NCBI RefSeq assembly: GCF_006716115.1
Contig: NZ_VFOO01000001.1
Span: forward strand, 868,001 to 932,000
From: Subtercola boreus
Lineage (GTDB): Bacteria > Actinomycetota > Actinomycetes > Actinomycetales > Microbacteriaceae
Direction: 5' to 3'
DNA: 64,000 nt
In this document: positions 22,854 to 30,522 of the stretch, piece after piece
Position numbering within the stretch: position 1 is the first letter of the stretch
Layout: every line of letters begins with the position of its first letter
Notes under the pieces: generated by a model
Database searches by the model: none
Told to the model about the DNA's origin: nothing
The model's input: the letters and a program-made list of their open reading frames with translations, nothing else
Program-made: the position numbers and the translations under genes

Positions 22854-23312
22854 GTGACTGAGCATCGCTACACAGTGAGTGTCGAATGGCTGGGCAATCG
22901 CGGAACCGGCACGAGCGGGTACCGCGACTACTCCCGGCAGGGCGTCATCCGCGCCGCCGGGAAGGTCGAGCTGCCATCGTCGGCCGACCACCCGTTCCGT
23001 GGTGACCGCGACCGCTGGAACCCGGAGGAACTGCTGCTCGCCGCCCTCGCCGAGTGCCACATGCTCTCCTATCTGCATGTGGCCGTGATGCACGGCGTGG
23101 TCGTCACCGGGTACGAAGACGAAGCGACGGCGACGATGGTGCAGGAAGGCCAGGGCGGCCACTTCACGTCGGCCACGCTGCATCCGGTGGTCACCCTCGC
23201 CGACCCGTCCCAGGCGGAGCTTGCGAACAGCATCCACGCCGAGGCCAGCGGCTATTGCTTCATCGCGCAGTCGGTGAACTTCCCGGTACTGCACGAGCCG
23301 CGGGCCCAGTGA
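22854..23312 (+). CDS. OsmC-family protein (peroxide/organic hydroperoxide protection)
   Basis: 152 residues with the OsmC fold. The two redox cysteines of the family are present: the first in LLAALAECHMLSYL, the second in ASGYCFIAQSVNFPV. NPEELLLAAL is a typical OsmC/Ohr block. Family members reduce organic hydroperoxides using dihydrolipoamide or similar thiols. The stop overlaps the GTG start of the MFS gene by two bases, so both are probably one transcript. Confidence 0.9.
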   Translation: MTEHRYTVSVEWLGNRGTGTSGYRDYSRQGVIRAAGKVELPSSADHPFRGDRDRWNPEELLLAALAECHMLSYLHVAVMHGVVVTGYEDEATATMVQEGQGGHFTSATLHPVVTLADPSQAELANSIHAEASGYCFIAQSVNFPVLHEPRAQ

Positions 23313-24679
23313 CGCGGTACCAGCGCGTCGTTCTCGTGGTGGCGATCCTCGCCTCCTTCATCTCGTTCCTCGACGGAACCGTCATCAACGTCGCGCTCCC
23401 GGCGATCACGAGAGAACTCGGCGGGGGGCTCGCCGGGCAGCAGTGGGTGGTCGACGCCTACCTCATCTCGCTCACAGCCGTCATTCTGCTCGCCGGTTCA
23501 CTCAGTGATGCGTTCGGGCGCCGCCGGGTCATCTTCTGGGGGCTGATCGGGTTCGGGGCGGCATCCGTTCTCTGTGCGGTGTCGCCGACGGACGAGTTCC
23601 TGATCGTGAGCCGCGGCATCCAGGGCATCGCCGGTGCGCTGCTCGTGCCGAGTTCGTTGGCCATCATCATCTCGAACTTCGACGGGCCGAAGCGGGCGAA
23701 GGCGATCGGCCAGTGGACGGCGTGGACGAGCACCGCCTTCCTCGCCGGCCCGCTGCTCGGCGGAGTGCTCGTCGATCTGCTCTCCTGGCGGCTGGTGTTC
23801 GCGATCAACGTGATCCCGATCGCGGTGACGCTGCTGATGCTGCGGAAGATCCAGGTCGAACCGCCTCGCCCCGTCAAACCGGTCATCGACTACCGCGGGG
23901 CGGTGCTCGGGATCCTCGGCATCGGGCTGCCGGTGTTCGCGCTGATCGAGCAGGGGCGGCTCGGTTGGTCGAACCCGGTCGTCTGGGGTGCGCTGGTGGT
24001 GGGGGTGCTGGCGTTCGCGCTCTTCATCGTGAACGAGCGGCGGGTGCCGCAGCCGATGCTGCCGCTCAGCCTGTTCCGGGTGCGGAACTTCTGGGTCGGC
24101 AACGTGGCGACCACCTTCGTCTACGCGGCGATCTCGTTGGGGTCGTTCCTGCTGACGCTCTTTCTGCAGCAGGTCGCGGGGTATTCGGCGACCCAGGCGG
24201 GGCTCGCGTCGCTGCCGTCGACGATCATCAGCATCGCTCTGTCCTCGCTGTTCGGAACCCTGGCCGGCAAGTACGGGTCGCGCCTGTTCATGGCGGTCGG
24301 GCCGCTGATCGCGGCGGTGGGCTGGGTGCTGCTGTCGCAGGTCACGGCGTCGGCCGACTACGTCACGCAGGTGTTCCCCGGCACGGTGGTCTTCGCCCTC
24401 GGGATGACCGTGACCGTCGCGCCTCTCACCGCCGCCATCCTCGGGGCGATCGACCCCGAGCGCGCCGGTATCGCCTCGGCCGTGAACAACGCGGTCTCGC
24501 GGGTCGCGGGGCTGGTCGCGACCGCGGCAGCGGCACTCATCGTGGGGGAGGCTCTCACGGTCGACGGATTCTCGCGCGGTGTGCTCACGACGGCGGCGCT
24601 GCTCGTCGTCGGCGGCCTCGTGTCGGCCGTCGGCATCCAGAATGCTCGCCGCCCCGCCCCGGCGGCTGCCGCCCCCTGA
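23309..24679 (+). CDS. MFS drug-type exporter (DHA2, EmrB/QacA family)
   Basis: 456 residues, about 14 predicted helices. The N-terminus ASFISFLDGTVINVALPAI is the DHA2 motif D1 with the membrane aspartate, and LSDAFGRRRVIFWGL is motif A; SRGIQGIAGALLVPSSLAII is motif B/C-like. These are proton antiporters exporting lipophilic compounds. GTG 23309 overlaps the OsmC stop and starts the conserved first helix; the frame is open further upstream to 23054 only as a shadow of the OsmC gene. Substrate cannot be predicted. Confidence 0.92.
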   Translation: MTRYQRVVLVVAILASFISFLDGTVINVALPAITRELGGGLAGQQWVVDAYLISLTAVILLAGSLSDAFGRRRVIFWGLIGFGAASVLCAVSPTDEFLIVSRGIQGIAGALLVPSSLAIIISNFDGPKRAKAIGQWTAWTSTAFLAGPLLGGVLVDLLSWRLVFAINVIPIAVTLLMLRKIQVEPPRPVKPVIDYRGAVLGILGIGLPVFALIEQGRLGWSNPVVWGALVVGVLAFALFIVNERRVPQPMLPLSLFRVRNFWVGNVATTFVYAAISLGSFLLTLFLQQVAGYSATQAGLASLPSTIISIALSSLFGTLAGKYGSRLFMAVGPLIAAVGWVLLSQVTASADYVTQVFPGTVVFALGMTVTVAPLTAAILGAIDPERAGIASAVNNAVSRVAGLVATAAAALIVGEALTVDGFSRGVLTTAALLVVGGLVSAVGIQNARRPAPAAAAP

Positions 24680-24790: not shown

Positions 24791-26143
24791 TCAGCGGGGG
24801 GCGCGGCGGGGGAGCTTCGGGAGGGTGTGCTGGTCGAGCCAGGCGGCGAAGAGGGCGCCGACGGGGGACGGCGAGTGCGATTGCACGAGGGCGACGAACT
24901 CGGGCGTCGACACGGTGCCGTGCCGGTGCGTCGCCACCCACTCACGGAGCACGCGGAAGAAGATGTCGTCGCCGAGCGTGCGACGGAGCGCGTGCAGCGT
25001 CAGCGCGCCCCGTTTGTAGAGCCGGTCGTCGAACATGCGCGCGGCGCCGGGGTCGCCGATCATCAGGTCCTTCGGCAGCCGGTTGAGCCGCGCCCAGGTC
25101 GAGGTGGCGCACTCGTCGGCGCTCATCCCGCCGGACTCCTCCGACCAGAGCCACTCGGCGTAGCAGGCGAAACCCTCGTGCAGCCAGATGTCCTTCCAGC
25201 GCCCGACCGTCAGGGAGTTGCCGAACCACTGGTGCGAGAGTTCGTGGGCGATGAGCCGCTCCGAGCCGCCGACTCCGTCGATGTGGTTGCGTCCGAAGAT
25301 GGCGAGGCCCTGCGCCTCCAGCGGGATCTCGAGGTCGTCGTCGGTGACCACGACGGTGTAGTCGTCGAACGGGTACTCCCCGAACATCCGCTCGAAGAGG
25401 GCCATCATGCGGCCCTGCGCCTCGAAGTCGGCCAGCGCGTTCGGCCGCAGGTCTTCGGGCAGCAGCACGTACTGCGGCACGCCGTCCTGCGACACGTGCA
25501 TGGTCTCGTAGAGCCCGATCTGCACGGTCGCCAGGTAGGTGGCGAGAGGTTCTGCCGAATGGAACTCCCAGCGTGTGCGCGACGCCCGCTGCGTCTTCTT
25601 GACCAGCTCGCCGTTGCAGAGCACGCGGTACCCCGATTCGACGGAGAACGCGATCGTGTAGGTCGCCTTGTTCGACGGATGATCGTTGCAGGGGAACCAC
25701 GACGGGGCCCCGCTCGGCTGGCCGGCCACGATCACGCCGTCGGTGAGCTCCTCCCAGCCGACGTCGCCCCACTGGCTCCGCACCGGTTTCGGCAGGCCGC
25801 TGTATTTGACGACGACAGTGAACTCCGCGCCCTTGTTCAGAGCCGTGACGGGGGTGACGACGAGTTTCCGCGCGGTCTGCGTGAGGTGCGCGGAGCGGTG
25901 CCCGTCGACGCTGACCTTGCTCGCGACGAGACCCGCGAAGTCGAGGCTGAAGCTCGACAGGCGCTGGGTCGCGACGGCGGTGATCGTGGTGGTGGCGCTC
26001 AGCCGGTTCGACGCGACGCGGTAGTCGCCGTCGATGTCGTAGTGCAGCACGGTGTAGCCGCCGTTGCCGCTGGTCGGCAGGTACGGATCGCCGAGCGAGC
26101 GGGCGCCCGCCGCTGCGAGTGCCGTCGAGGTGGGCCGCGCCAT
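24791..26143 (-). CDS. M1-family zinc metallopeptidase
   Basis: 450-residue gluzincin. The zinc site is HELSHQWFGNSL (His300, His304, catalytic Glu301) with the third ligand Glu323 in WLHEGFACYAEW. The exopeptidase GAMEN motif is changed to EAQGLAIF (276-283). There is an N-terminal beta-domain but no C-terminal helical domain, so it is much shorter than PepN (about 870). No signal peptide is evident. The ATG overlaps the stop of the Pls-type NRPS gene by one base, so the two are translated together. In epsilon-poly-lysine producers a zinc aminopeptidase that degrades the polymer is known; this gene is a candidate for an equivalent role, by context only. Confidence 0.9.
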   Translation of the reverse strand: MARPTSTALAAAGARSLGDPYLPTSGNGGYTVLHYDIDGDYRVASNRLSATTTITAVATQRLSSFSLDFAGLVASKVSVDGHRSAHLTQTARKLVVTPVTALNKGAEFTVVVKYSGLPKPVRSQWGDVGWEELTDGVIVAGQPSGAPSWFPCNDHPSNKATYTIAFSVESGYRVLCNGELVKKTQRASRTRWEFHSAEPLATYLATVQIGLYETMHVSQDGVPQYVLLPEDLRPNALADFEAQGRMMALFERMFGEYPFDDYTVVVTDDDLEIPLEAQGLAIFGRNHIDGVGGSERLIAHELSHQWFGNSLTVGRWKDIWLHEGFACYAEWLWSEESGGMSADECATSTWARLNRLPKDLMIGDPGAARMFDDRLYKRGALTLHALRRTLGDDIFFRVLREWVATHRHGTVSTPEFVALVQSHSPSPVGALFAAWLDQHTLPKLPRRAPR

Positions 26144-29100
26144 CAGCCACCCACCGGCAGCACCGGCAGGCCGGCTTCGGCCGCGGTCTCGAGGCGGAGC
26201 CCGGAGGAGTCCATGCCGGAGGAACCCTGGCTCGCGGCATCCGCAACCGCCGCATCCGCCCACGGCGCGATCGGGTTGCCTGCCCAGCGCGACCCCGACG
26301 GCACATGCTCGCCCCGCATGACGAGCGACGCCGGCCCGACGGTCGCGTCGCTGCCGATGGACGCGGCGGGCAGGATGACGCCGTGCGGCCCGATCGTCGC
26401 GCCGTCGTCGAGCGAGACGCTGTCGAGGCTCATCACCCGGTCGTGGAAGAGATGCGTCTGCACGACGACGCCCCGGTTGACCGTGGAGCCCGCCCCCAGG
26501 GATATCAGGTCGGCCTCGGGCAGCCAGTACGTCTCGATCCAGGCGCCCCGGCCGATGCGCGCGCCGATCGACCGCAGCCACCACGCCAGAGCGGGCGTAC
26601 CGGAGGCGGCGTTCGCGAACCAGGGAGCGGCAACCATCTCCACAAAGGTATCCGACACTTCGTTGCGCCAGACGAACGACGACCAGAGTGGATGCTCCCC
26701 TTGACGGATTCGTCCGATGAGGGCCCACTTCGCAGCCGTCGTCACGATGGCAGCGACTGCACCGCCCGCAAGCATCACAGCCCCGGAGAGCAGGATCGCT
26801 CCGCCGAGCCCGAGCGTGCCGAGCAGCAGTTCGAGCAGCACGACGATTCCGAGGCCTATCGCGACACTGATCATCACCGGGACGATGCGGCCCAGCTCCC
26901 AGAGCGCGCGGGCCAGTTTCAGCCAGCCGGAGGGGTGGAAGGTGCGGCCCTCATCGAACTCGGCGACCTGCCGGCGGAGGCGCACGGGCGGGTTGCCGAG
27001 CCACGAGGAGCCGCTCTTCGCCTTGCGGGGGGTGGCGCTGAGAACGGCCACGAGACCGTTGCGGGGCACGGTGCGGCCGGGGCCGGTCATCCCGCTGTTG
27101 CCGAGGAACGCGCGCTTGCCGACCTTCGCTTCGTCGATGCGGAGCCAGCCACCGCCGAGTTCGTAGGAGGCGACCATGGTGTCGTCGGCGAGGAAGGCCT
27201 GGTCGGCGATCGTGGTCATCTTCGGCAGGAGGAGAACCGTCGAGGCTTCGACGTTCTTGCCGACAGTGGCCCCGAGCATCCGGAGCCAGACCGGCGTGAA
27301 GAGGCTCGCGTAGAAGGGGAAGAGGATGGTGCGCGCGGCATCCAGCAGGCGTTCGGTGGCCCAGACCTGGAAGCCGATGCGGCTCCGCACGGGGTAGCTG
27401 CCGGGGCGGATGCCGATTCCGAGCAGCCTGGCCGCGATCACGGTGAGACCTGCGTAGACGATGCCGGCCGCGATCGTGGCGAGCGGGATGGCGGCGAGCA
27501 CGCGGAGGGCGGCGTCGCCGAGGGTCGGGAGGGCGGTGAAGCCCGATCCCACGGCAACTCCCGCGGTGCTCGCCACGGACGTGCTGACCGAGACGAAGGC
27601 CGGAGTCTGGGCCGTGCCGCCGCCTGTGCTTCCGAGACCGCCGAGTGCCGACGGGTCAAGGCTCAGCCCGAGGAACCAGCCCGCCACGAGGGCGCCGGCC
27701 AGCACGGCGACCACCGGCAGCAGCGAGAGCGCCACGGAGCCCGCGGCGAAGGCGACCAGCCAGCGGGCGTTCCGCGGCGGACGCTCGTTCGGCCAGTCAG
27801 GGCGCGCCTTGCCGCGGCGTTCGGCGGGGGATCCGGCCCAGAGCTGGCCCGCAGGTACCCGCCCCGAGACGGCGGAACCCGGGGCGATCTCCGCGCGTCG
27901 CCCGATGCGCGTGCCGGGCAGGATCGTGCTCCGTGCCCCGATCGCCGCGTCGGCCCCGATCTGGATCGAGCCGAGGCGGAGCGTGTCGCCGTCGATCCAA
28001 TACCCCGAGAGGTCGACCTCCGGTTCGACGGATGCCCGCGTGCCGATCTTCAGCATGCCCGTGATGGGCGGCAGGGTGTGGAGGTCGACGCCGGGGGCGA
28101 TCTTCGCGCCGAGCGCCCGGGCGTAGGTGATGATCCACGGGGCGCCGGCGAGGTTCGTCGCCCCCACGAGCTGCGCGATCTGTTCGGCGAGCCAGAGCCG
28201 CACGTGCACCGTGCCGCCGCGCGGGTAGTCGCCGGGTTCGACGCCGGCCAGCAGGGCGCGGGCGGAGAGTACCGAGATCGCCATCCGCCCGAACGGGGTG
28301 ATCAGCACGAGGAACCCGACGAGGATGTACCACCACGAGATCGTCGGCGCCCACGGGAACACCCCGAACAGCGCCAGCACGTTGTTGGCCGCGAGTACAT
28401 AGACGAGCCAGCGCAGCCCGACGAGCACGTACAGCGGGATTCCGAGCAGTGTCTGGGCGAGCTGGGTGCCGGGCGGGGTCGGCCGCACGGGCGCGCGCTT
28501 CACCGCTTCGACGGGGGAGCGGGCATCCAGTTCCGTGGCCAGCGCGCCGATCCGCGGGTGGTCGTAGATGTCGGCGACCGTCGTCTCCGGGAAGCGGGTG
28601 CGGATGACGGACACGAGTTGCGCGGCCGAGAGGCTCCCGCCGCCGAACGCGAAGAAGTCGTCGTCTGGGCCGGTGATCGGGGCGCCGAGGATGGCGGTGA
28701 AGTGTTCAGCGATCCAGAGGGCCGTCTCGCTGAGGGCGGTGTCCGGACCTGCGCCCTTCTTCGAGCCGTCGCCGGGGCGTGTCCCGGCTCCGGATGCGGC
28801 GCCGGCACCGGCGTCGGCATCGGACCCTGACCCCGAGCCTCCGCCCCGGAAGCTCGGCAGCGGCCACGGCAGCGCCGCCTTGTCGACCTTGCCCGAGGTG
28901 CGGGTGGGCAGGCTGTCGACGACGGACAGCAGGGGGATCAGGGCGGCCGGCAGCGACTCCCGGAGGAGCGTCGTGGCTCCGGCGGTGTCGAAGGGGCTGC
29001 CGGGATCGGTCGCCGCGAGGTACCCGACGAGGATCTGGTTGCCCGCCGCAGTGCGCTGCACGACCGCCGCCGCGCCGGCCACCCCGGGCAGCGCCTGGAT

Positions 29101-30522
29101 CGCCGCTTCGACCTCACCCAGTTCGATCCGTCGCCCGCCGAGCTTCACCTGGTCGTCGGCGCGACCCTGGAAGAGCAGCCCCCGGCGGTCGAAGACCACG
29201 AGGTCACCGCTCCGGTAGGCGCGATCCCAGCCGAGGGTCGGCATGGGCGCGTACTTCTCGGCGTCCTTCGCCGGGTCGAGGTAGCGCGCCAGTCCGACCC
29301 CGCCGATGATGAGTTCGCCCGTCTCGCCCTCGGCGACCGGATGCCCGTCACCGTCGACCACGGCGAGCAGCCAGCCGTCGAGCGGCAGCCCGATCCGCAC
29401 GGGAGAGACCCCGTCGAGCAGGGCGCCGCATGCGACCACGGTCGCCTCGGTGGGGCCGTAGGTGTTCCAGACCTCGCGTCCGTCGACGGCGAGTCGCGCG
29501 ACGAGTTCGGGCGGGCAGGCCTCGCCGCCGAAGATGAGCAGCCGCACCAGCTCGAGCGATTCGAGCGGCCAGAGCGCCGCCAGGGTGGGCACGGTCGAGA
29601 CAACGGTGATGCCGTGCGCGATCAGCCAGGGCCCGAGGTCGACGCCCGACCGCACCAGTGACCGCGGGGCAGGCACGAGGCACGCGCCGTGCCGCCACGC
29701 CAGCCACATCTCCTCGCAGGAGGCGTCGAACGCCACGGAGAGCCCCGCGAGCACCCGGTCGCCGGGCCCGATCGGTTCCCCCTGCAGGAACATCCGCGCC
29801 TCGGCGTCGACGAAGGCTGCGGCCGAGCGGTGACTGACGGCGACACCCTTCGGCGTGCCGGTCGAACCCGACGTGAAGATGATCCAGGCGTCGAGGTCGG
29901 GGGTGGGGCCGCCGACCACAGGCAGGGTGCCGGTGGGGGAGCCGAGGGTCGGGATGCTCGCGGTGTCGGCCCCGGCGTCGGCTCCGGCCGAGGCGGTGTG
30001 CGCGGCGCCGACGTGCTCAGCACCGGTGCGCGCGGCGTCTTCGCCGCCGTCCGGCCCGGTCCGGGCATCCGGAACCGCACTCGGCACGAGCACGCCATCG
30101 GCCCCGATCACGCCGACCACCTCGGCCTCGCCGAACACGAGCGTGGCGCGCTCCTCGGGGTCGTCCGCATCGACCGGAACGTAGGCCGCGCCGGCAACCA
30201 GCACGCCGAGGATCGAGATGTAGAGAGTGCGGGTGCCGGACGGGATCCGGATGCCCACCCGATCGCCGCGCCGCACGCCGGCCTCCGCCAACCGTGCCGC
30301 CGTGCGGTTGACCTCGCGGAGCAGTTCGCGGTAGCTGAGAGTGCCGGCCGCGTCCGCCAGGGCCGAGGCCTGCGGGTTGGCGACGGCACTCTCCCGGAGG
30401 ATGTCCACCAGCGTCCGCGGTTCGGGTGTGGGCCCTGCCCCCAGGATGCCCGCACCCTCCCGCAGCGCGCCCGGGCTGCTCGACGGGCCGGGGGTGTGCG
30501 AAGCGGAGGTCATGCCGGGCAT
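26143..30522 (-). CDS. Pls/PosA-family membrane NRPS (homo-poly amino acid synthetase)
   Basis: 1459 residues in the order adenylation domain (about 35-555), carrier domain (about 595-670, Ser630 in FAFGGGSLSAAQL), then six predicted membrane helices in three pairs (about 690-748, 920-1033, 1210-1262) separating three left-handed-beta-helix-like domains. The last has hexapeptide-type repeats (ATIGPHGVILPAASIGSDA). No condensation or thioesterase domain is present. This is the architecture of epsilon-poly-lysine synthetase Pls and relatives. A-domain motifs: IIFTSGSTGTPKGVAVSH, NTYGPTE, YRSGDLV and LPTRTSGKVDK. Manual alignment to GrsA gives pocket residues D266 A267 E270 S309 I330 G332 T354 V362 V363 K545. 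The code DAESIGTVVK is close to the lysine code DAESIGSVCK as I recall it. Residues 141-205 form an Ala/Gly-rich insert. Confidence 0.88.
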   Translation of the reverse strand: MPGMTSASHTPGPSSSPGALREGAGILGAGPTPEPRTLVDILRESAVANPQASALADAAGTLSYRELLREVNRTAARLAEAGVRRGDRVGIRIPSGTRTLYISILGVLVAGAAYVPVDADDPEERATLVFGEAEVVGVIGADGVLVPSAVPDARTGPDGGEDAARTGAEHVGAAHTASAGADAGADTASIPTLGSPTGTLPVVGGPTPDLDAWIIFTSGSTGTPKGVAVSHRSAAAFVDAEARMFLQGEPIGPGDRVLAGLSVAFDASCEEMWLAWRHGACLVPAPRSLVRSGVDLGPWLIAHGITVVSTVPTLAALWPLESLELVRLLIFGGEACPPELVARLAVDGREVWNTYGPTEATVVACGALLDGVSPVRIGLPLDGWLLAVVDGDGHPVAEGETGELIIGGVGLARYLDPAKDAEKYAPMPTLGWDRAYRSGDLVVFDRRGLLFQGRADDQVKLGGRRIELGEVEAAIQALPGVAGAAAVVQRTAAGNQILVGYLAATDPGSPFDTAGATTLLRESLPAALIPLLSVVDSLPTRTSGKVDKAALPWPLPSFRGGGSGSGSDADAGAGAASGAGTRPGDGSKKGAGPDTALSETALWIAEHFTAILGAPITGPDDDFFAFGGGSLSAAQLVSVIRTRFPETTVADIYDHPRIGALATELDARSPVEAVKRAPVRPTPPGTQLAQTLLGIPLYVLVGLRWLVYVLAANNVLALFGVFPWAPTISWWYILVGFLVLITPFGRMAISVLSARALLAGVEPGDYPRGGTVHVRLWLAEQIAQLVGATNLAGAPWIITYARALGAKIAPGVDLHTLPPITGMLKIGTRASVEPEVDLSGYWIDGDTLRLGSIQIGADAAIGARSTILPGTRIGRRAEIAPGSAVSGRVPAGQLWAGSPAERRGKARPDWPNERPPRNARWLVAFAAGSVALSLLPVVAVLAGALVAGWFLGLSLDPSALGGLGSTGGGTAQTPAFVSVSTSVASTAGVAVGSGFTALPTLGDAALRVLAAIPLATIAAGIVYAGLTVIAARLLGIGIRPGSYPVRSRIGFQVWATERLLDAARTILFPFYASLFTPVWLRMLGATVGKNVEASTVLLLPKMTTIADQAFLADDTMVASYELGGGWLRIDEAKVGKRAFLGNSGMTGPGRTVPRNGLVAVLSATPRKAKSGSSWLGNPPVRLRRQVAEFDEGRTFHPSGWLKLARALWELGRIVPVMISVAIGLGIVVLLELLLGTLGLGGAILLSGAVMLAGGAVAAIVTTAAKWALIGRIRQGEHPLWSSFVWRNEVSDTFVEMVAAPWFANAASGTPALAWWLRSIGARIGRGAWIETYWLPEADLISLGAGSTVNRGVVVQTHLFHDRVMSLDSVSLDDGATIGPHGVILPAASIGSDATVGPASLVMRGEHVPSGSRWAGNPIAPWADAAVADAASQGSSGMDSSGLRLETAAEAGLPVLPVGG

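Follow-up and report, generated by a model that had tools for sequence, protein, structure and literature searches.

A synthetase-peptidase gene pair in Subtercola boreus is a probable epsilon-poly-L-lysine cassette

A Pls-type synthetase gene overlaps an M1 peptidase gene

We analyzed a 64,000-nucleotide stretch of the Subtercola boreus genome (positions 868,001 to 932,000 of contig NZ_VFOO01000001.1; hereafter the window). Here, two adjoining genes on the reverse strand encode a Pls-type single-module nonribosomal peptide synthetase (NRPS; 26143..30522, 1459 amino acids (aa)) and a PldII-like, two-domain M1 zinc peptidase (24791..26143, 450 aa). An original prediction, made from the DNA letters, had described the synthetase as an adenylation (A) domain, a carrier domain and six helices alternating with three beta-helix-like domains, without condensation (C) or thioesterase (TE) domains. 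This description was borne out by Pfam, the NCBIfam profile TIGR02353, hydropathy and a structure model, although the third helix and beta-helix unit was modeled at low confidence. The A domain spans ~aa 35-556 (28855..30420, reverse strand), as delimited by Pfam search (AMP-binding domain, aa 43-413) and pocket comparison with the solved structure 7wew. A peptidyl carrier protein (PCP) domain matching PF00550 lies at aa 603-663 (28534..28716, reverse strand) and contains the motif GGGSL, which we take to be the phosphopantetheine site. No condensation or thioesterase family was present among all four Pfam hits or the best 25 of 106 NCBIfam families.

The membrane part (aa 689-1418; 26269..28458, reverse strand) consists of three units, each with two helices and one beta-helix domain (tandem domains C1-C3). 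A profile search matched it to TIGR02353, the Pls/PosA family, at 712.9 bits against a curated cut-off of 423.1. Hydropathy revealed six hydrophobic regions (aa 691-724, 727-754, 919-956, 1003-1039, 1206-1264, and 1251-1269), the fifth and sixth of which merge, as well as two weak regions within the soluble A domain. In an AlphaFold model of the carrier and membrane parts (mean pLDDT 74.4), groups of helices alternate with short-strand stretches, the third stretch being of low confidence. The best Foldseek matches of this model were hexapeptide (beta-helix) acyltransferases and carrier domains, which were weak (two hits at E <= 0.001, the best at 7.6e-4) because only parts align. Of the three beta-helix domains, only one exceeded Pfam's own cut-off (aa 853-886). 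The synthetase thus combines the traits of the Pls/PosA family: the TIGR02353 match, A and PCP domains without C or TE domains, and six helices alternating with three acyltransferase-like domains.

The peptidase gene is directly downstream of pls and coupled to it, a place kept in relatives. At the junction (GGC TGATG GCG), the synthetase stop TGA (26145-26143) and the peptidase ATG (26143-26141) have one base in common, exactly as first described. Its assignment draws on Pfam, the zinc motif, hydropathy and a structure model. Pfam identified Peptidase_M1 and M1_N domains, and the motif HEXXH-X18-E (H300, E301, H304, E323) was invariant in 38 aligned peptidase sequences. The model (mean pLDDT 87.9) fits the M1 enzyme of Deinococcus radiodurans at TM ~0.85. 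Both genes are under purifying selection in the genus, with dN/dS values of 0.15-0.21 (three pairwise comparisons per gene).

Between its third and fourth helices, the membrane part carries ~45 extra residues (window ~27520-27665), which AlphaFold modeled at low confidence. Within alignment A1, this insert was shared by the window synthetase and that of locus L046, from the same genus, and was absent from nine other sequences. Longer matches suggest that it also occurs in two further Subtercola loci (L139 and L140).

The substrate pocket is identical to that of an epsilon-poly-lysine synthase

The ten specificity positions of the A domain (aa 266, 267, 270, 309, 330, 332, 354, 362, 363, and 545, the last being the motif lysine) read DAESIGTVVK. 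All ten are identical in 7wew, an epsilon-poly-lysine synthase of known structure that presumably comes from Streptomyces albulus. Its A domain is also the nearest solved structure to the synthetase. The original prediction had read the code correctly and counted only eight of ten matches to a lysine code; the true match is complete. By this comparison the pocket is of the lysine type expected for an epsilon-poly-L-lysine (epsilon-PL) synthetase, and not a non-cationic one. We assigned the pocket positions from motif landmarks; their spacing fits the PosA residue numbers in PMC10522769 save for a one-residue shift.

The same architecture makes polymers of ornithine, diaminobutyrate, diaminopropionate, and beta-lysine, and the enzymes concerned have Glu at pocket position 3 in common (PMC10522769). 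One of these amino acids could therefore replace lysine as the building block. However, the reported codes differ from that of the window. The ornithine enzyme PosA has DMEHNGTVSK and the beta-lysine enzyme DGESISVVNK, while position 2 is Phe in PDAP/PDAB enzymes and Ala in lysine enzymes (PMC10522769). Within PosA itself, the substitution M218A raised kcat/KM for lysine nearly tenfold (PMC10522769). The window synthetase has Ala at position 2 within its perfectly matching pocket, and a Phe-type paralogue is only 28% identical to the window protein. Another diamino acid is very unlikely on these grounds, and a non-lysine polymer was rejected, as the pocket is exact for the lysine enzyme.

The Phe-type paralogue (L065:4355-9418; pocket DFECLSVVTK) is the second TIGR02353 synthetase of genome G071, from the same bacterial family. 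No peptidase match was found beside it; G071 also has a lysine-type pair.

The pairing with a peptidase tracks the lysine pocket

Conservation was followed in family, phylum and named surveys, which overlap in part, so their counts are given apart. The family sample comprised 120 genomes including the window's own. A TIGR02353 match of some kind was present in 109, and 47 exceeded the curated cut-off; only these 47 were used, the others having short partial matches. Of the 48 loci fetched from them (G071 has two), 46 read DAESIGTVVK and one DAESVGTVVK (L063). The peptidase was directly downstream on the same strand in all 47 lysine-type loci, the window's included. Its start overlapped the synthetase stop by one or four bases in 39 of the 47 (here and below, any ATG, GTG, or TTG was accepted as a start).

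In the phylum sample, 24 of 396 genomes (own included) matched at E <= 1e-100. These gave 26 loci beyond the window's own, 21 of which read DAESIGTVVK; a peptidase adjoined the synthetase in 20 of the 21, with an overlapping start in 12. The other five had different pockets (DFEYNGTVTK once, DIWQSTADDK four times) and no peptidase beside them at the threshold used. Taking the two samples together, a peptidase accompanied 67 of 68 lysine-pocket loci versus 0 of 6 loci with other pockets (Fisher p ~4e-8, kinship ignored). Two of these six negatives are less secure. The L138 contig measures 7.7 kb, of which <2 kb remains on the downstream side. At L137, an open reading frame of weak similarity (27% identity, 53.5 bits) occurs ~2.6 kb downstream, in a genome without a match at E <= 1e-20.

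Named loci, examined as the best 80 of 580 confirmed, gave a similar picture. DAESIGTVVK was read in 79, the remaining one being cut by a contig end, and the peptidase was downstream on the same strand in 79 of 80 (57 with an overlapping start). Within these 80, the closest named relatives were Subtercola lobariae (L139) and Subtercola sp. Z020 (L140), at 83% and 87% identity, respectively, in the best segment of the membrane part, which agrees with the Microbacteriaceae-like organism proposed by the original prediction. The pairing on which the original prediction relied is thus kept in relatives (47/47, 20/21, and 79/80), and a chance neighborhood of the two genes was rejected on the basis of its conservation across the phylum sample.

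If the cassette were a remnant, either decaying or silent for good, it might show the patchy presence seen here (47 of 120 family genomes) and broken genes such as the G076 synthetase (L066), which is split over two reading frames. For the window cassette this is extremely improbable, as motifs are intact, frames are open, and the dN/dS values of both genes are low. In L066, the adjoining peptidase frame is open.

Some loci had a different layout. In the Tsukamurella and Williamsia loci (L177, L215, L202, L199), a gap of 0.6-2.1 kb separates synthetase and peptidase. In L118, L119, L125, and L138, a TIGR02353 membrane protein adjoins a separate A-domain protein whose pocket, DIWQSTADDK, lacks Glu at position 3; the L118 pair consists of a PCP-membrane part and an A-PCP-TE protein. 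No M1 peptidase match was found at these four loci (L138 being near a contig end). Judged from sequence, this split arrangement is unlike Pls.

Most relatives of the structurally characterized synthase have a homologous partner gene

With the A domain of 7wew as query, 126 of 295 genomes from a single genus, probably Streptomyces, gave matches at E <= 1e-120. Ten regions were fetched from among the thirteen best matches, and the A domains of the nearest three (L227-L229) were 89-93% identical to 7wew. In nine of the ten regions, an M1 peptidase with HEXXH-X18-E, 41-43% identical to that of the window, was directly downstream on the same strand. Start and stop overlapped by four bases in eight of these nine, including L227-L229. 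These data tie the window peptidase to the gene beside pls; its putative identity with PldII draws on position and homology in the 7wew relatives.

A pls-pldII pair has been published for Streptomyces and Corynebacterium variabile (PMC9223678, PMC8117764). Translation of pldII is coupled to that of pls in S. albulus, where repression of pldII led to some polymer of >40 units (PMC9223678). Published PldII degrades epsilon-PL (PMC8117764, PMC9223678), and the C. variabile synthetase homologue makes epsilon-PL in Streptomyces coelicolor (PMC8117764). Acid pH is reported to matter in Streptomyces for transcripts or product (PMC9205021).

A probable pls-pldII type operon

The window pair is, with high probability, an operon of the pls-pldII type, responsible for epsilon-PL synthesis and polymer degradation. 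Architecture, intact catalytic motifs, pocket identity, conserved pairing, and purifying selection are established here. From published work on relatives, we infer the lysine substrate, iterative isopeptide linkage, export, and degradation. Lysine would be adenylated and then loaded onto the carrier domain, and the membrane part would join lysines repeatedly via their side-chain amines. The polymer would be exported from the cell. The peptidase, whose translation from the shared message is coupled to that of the synthetase, would cut the polymer and so protect the producer, and may possibly shape chain length. The original prediction had proposed a make-and-trim pair for a cationic homopolymer, a proposal supported by the lysine pocket, the conserved NRPS-peptidase pairing, and the published S. 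albulus pls-pldII coupling (PMC9223678).

Several observations weigh against this assignment. Three synthetases had no peptidase beside them in the DNA fetched: L126 in the phylum sample (genome G415, where a 50% identical homologue is on another contig), Arthrobacter sp. Y81 among the named loci (L209, ~6 kb fetched), and the 7wew relative L235. Simple hydropathy revealed no hydrophobic segment at the N-terminus of the window peptidase, yet published reports locate PldII outside the membrane (PMC9223678, PMC9205021), on the cell surface (PMC9205021). A published homology model of PldII places two zinc ions at D44, T45, D173, and K174, not at an M1 HEXXH site (PMC9223678). Chain length is also reported to be set by the synthetase and not by the degrading enzyme (PMC9205021), so a role of the peptidase in setting it is disputed in print. 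Our confidence in the pls-pldII reading is slightly lower on account of the conflicting zinc sites and the dispute over length control. Lastly, the open-licence literature yielded only predictions, and no product or enzyme activity, for any Subtercola strain. C. variabile gave no detectable polymer in its own culture despite a functional gene (PMC8117764), and the window cassette may therefore be silent.

Where the peptidase may act

The apparent lack of an N-terminal hydrophobic segment extends beyond the window peptidase. Of 146 peptidases (47 + 20 + 79 from the three partly overlapping surveys), 142 were without one by simple hydropathy; the other four exceeded the threshold at an apparent strand of the N-terminal domain. 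Peptidase starts were assigned mechanically, using whichever start codon came first in the vicinity of the synthetase stop, and are unproven. On this evidence, PldII-like enzymes would either work within the cell or get to its surface in some other way. Of all the features described, this one alone deserves specialist attention, and it raises a testable question of where the peptidase acts.

Lack of such a segment would also suit a general cytosolic aminopeptidase that does not act on the polymer, as would the closest fold, that of the Deinococcus radiodurans two-domain M1 peptidase. We know of no link between that enzyme and polylysine. However, peptidase presence follows the lysine pocket across the two genome samples (67 of 68 loci versus 0 of 6, kinship uncorrected), and published PldII does degrade epsilon-PL (PMC8117764, PMC9223678). 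We therefore consider this alternative unlikely. More tentatively, within the pls-pldII assignment, the coupled peptidase could be a leaderless cytosolic partner rather than an external self-resistance enzyme: made at a set ratio to the synthetase, it might edit or clear polymer at the inner membrane face. We regard this as possible and on balance doubtful; if true, it would build length control into the system and guard against polymer that is misdelivered.

Genes flanking the pair

Around the pair lie genes for a major facilitator superfamily (MFS) transporter, OsmC, FKBP, DXR, M50, an aminotransferase, and an asparaginase. Their order is kept only in Subtercola loci and partly in a few others (L041/L141, L045, L145). 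The MFS transporter gene (23309-24679) is convergent with the peptidase gene and is conserved in S. lobariae as well as in a few relatives; it was not found in the same-genus locus L046. A larger biosynthetic cluster was rejected on account of the poorly kept order beyond Subtercola and the gene missing from L046. The conserved unit is therefore the two genes alone.

Comparison with known systems

The window pair is a clear but ordinary new instance of a described system and leaves the known picture unchanged. It adds a well-supported epsilon-PL cassette in Subtercola. The pair is common in the family and tracks the lysine pocket, so genome miners can better predict both product and partner enzyme from sequence. 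The original prediction had called such products little described in Microbacteriaceae, which is only partly right. Pls homologues whose pockets are the same or very similar have been reported in Microbacterium and other coryneform genera (PMC8117764). Likewise, an antiSMASH cluster for a non-alpha poly-amino acid has been noted in several Subtercola genomes and is conserved among the genomes compared (PMC9287328, PMC10303725).

The closest known system is pls-pldII of S. albulus, with which the window shares architecture, gene order, and translational coupling (PMC9223678), along with the ten pocket residues of 7wew. The two differ in sequence: the window A domain and 7wew share ~70% identity in the piece that aligns best, the membrane part is ~45-55% identical to those of 7wew-like genomes, and the ~45-aa insert between the third and fourth helices is found in the window's genus. 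Pls and the operon peptidase of C. variabile, likened here by description, come from another genus, with epsilon-PL shown in a heterologous host (PMC8117764). PosA, the delta-poly-L-ornithine synthetase of Acinetobacter baumannii, has the same family and architecture and differs in its pocket (PMC10522769). For the peptidase, the two-domain M1 metallopeptidase of Deinococcus radiodurans (6a8z, 6ifg) has the same fold over ~440 residues and the same two-domain form, at 30% identity.

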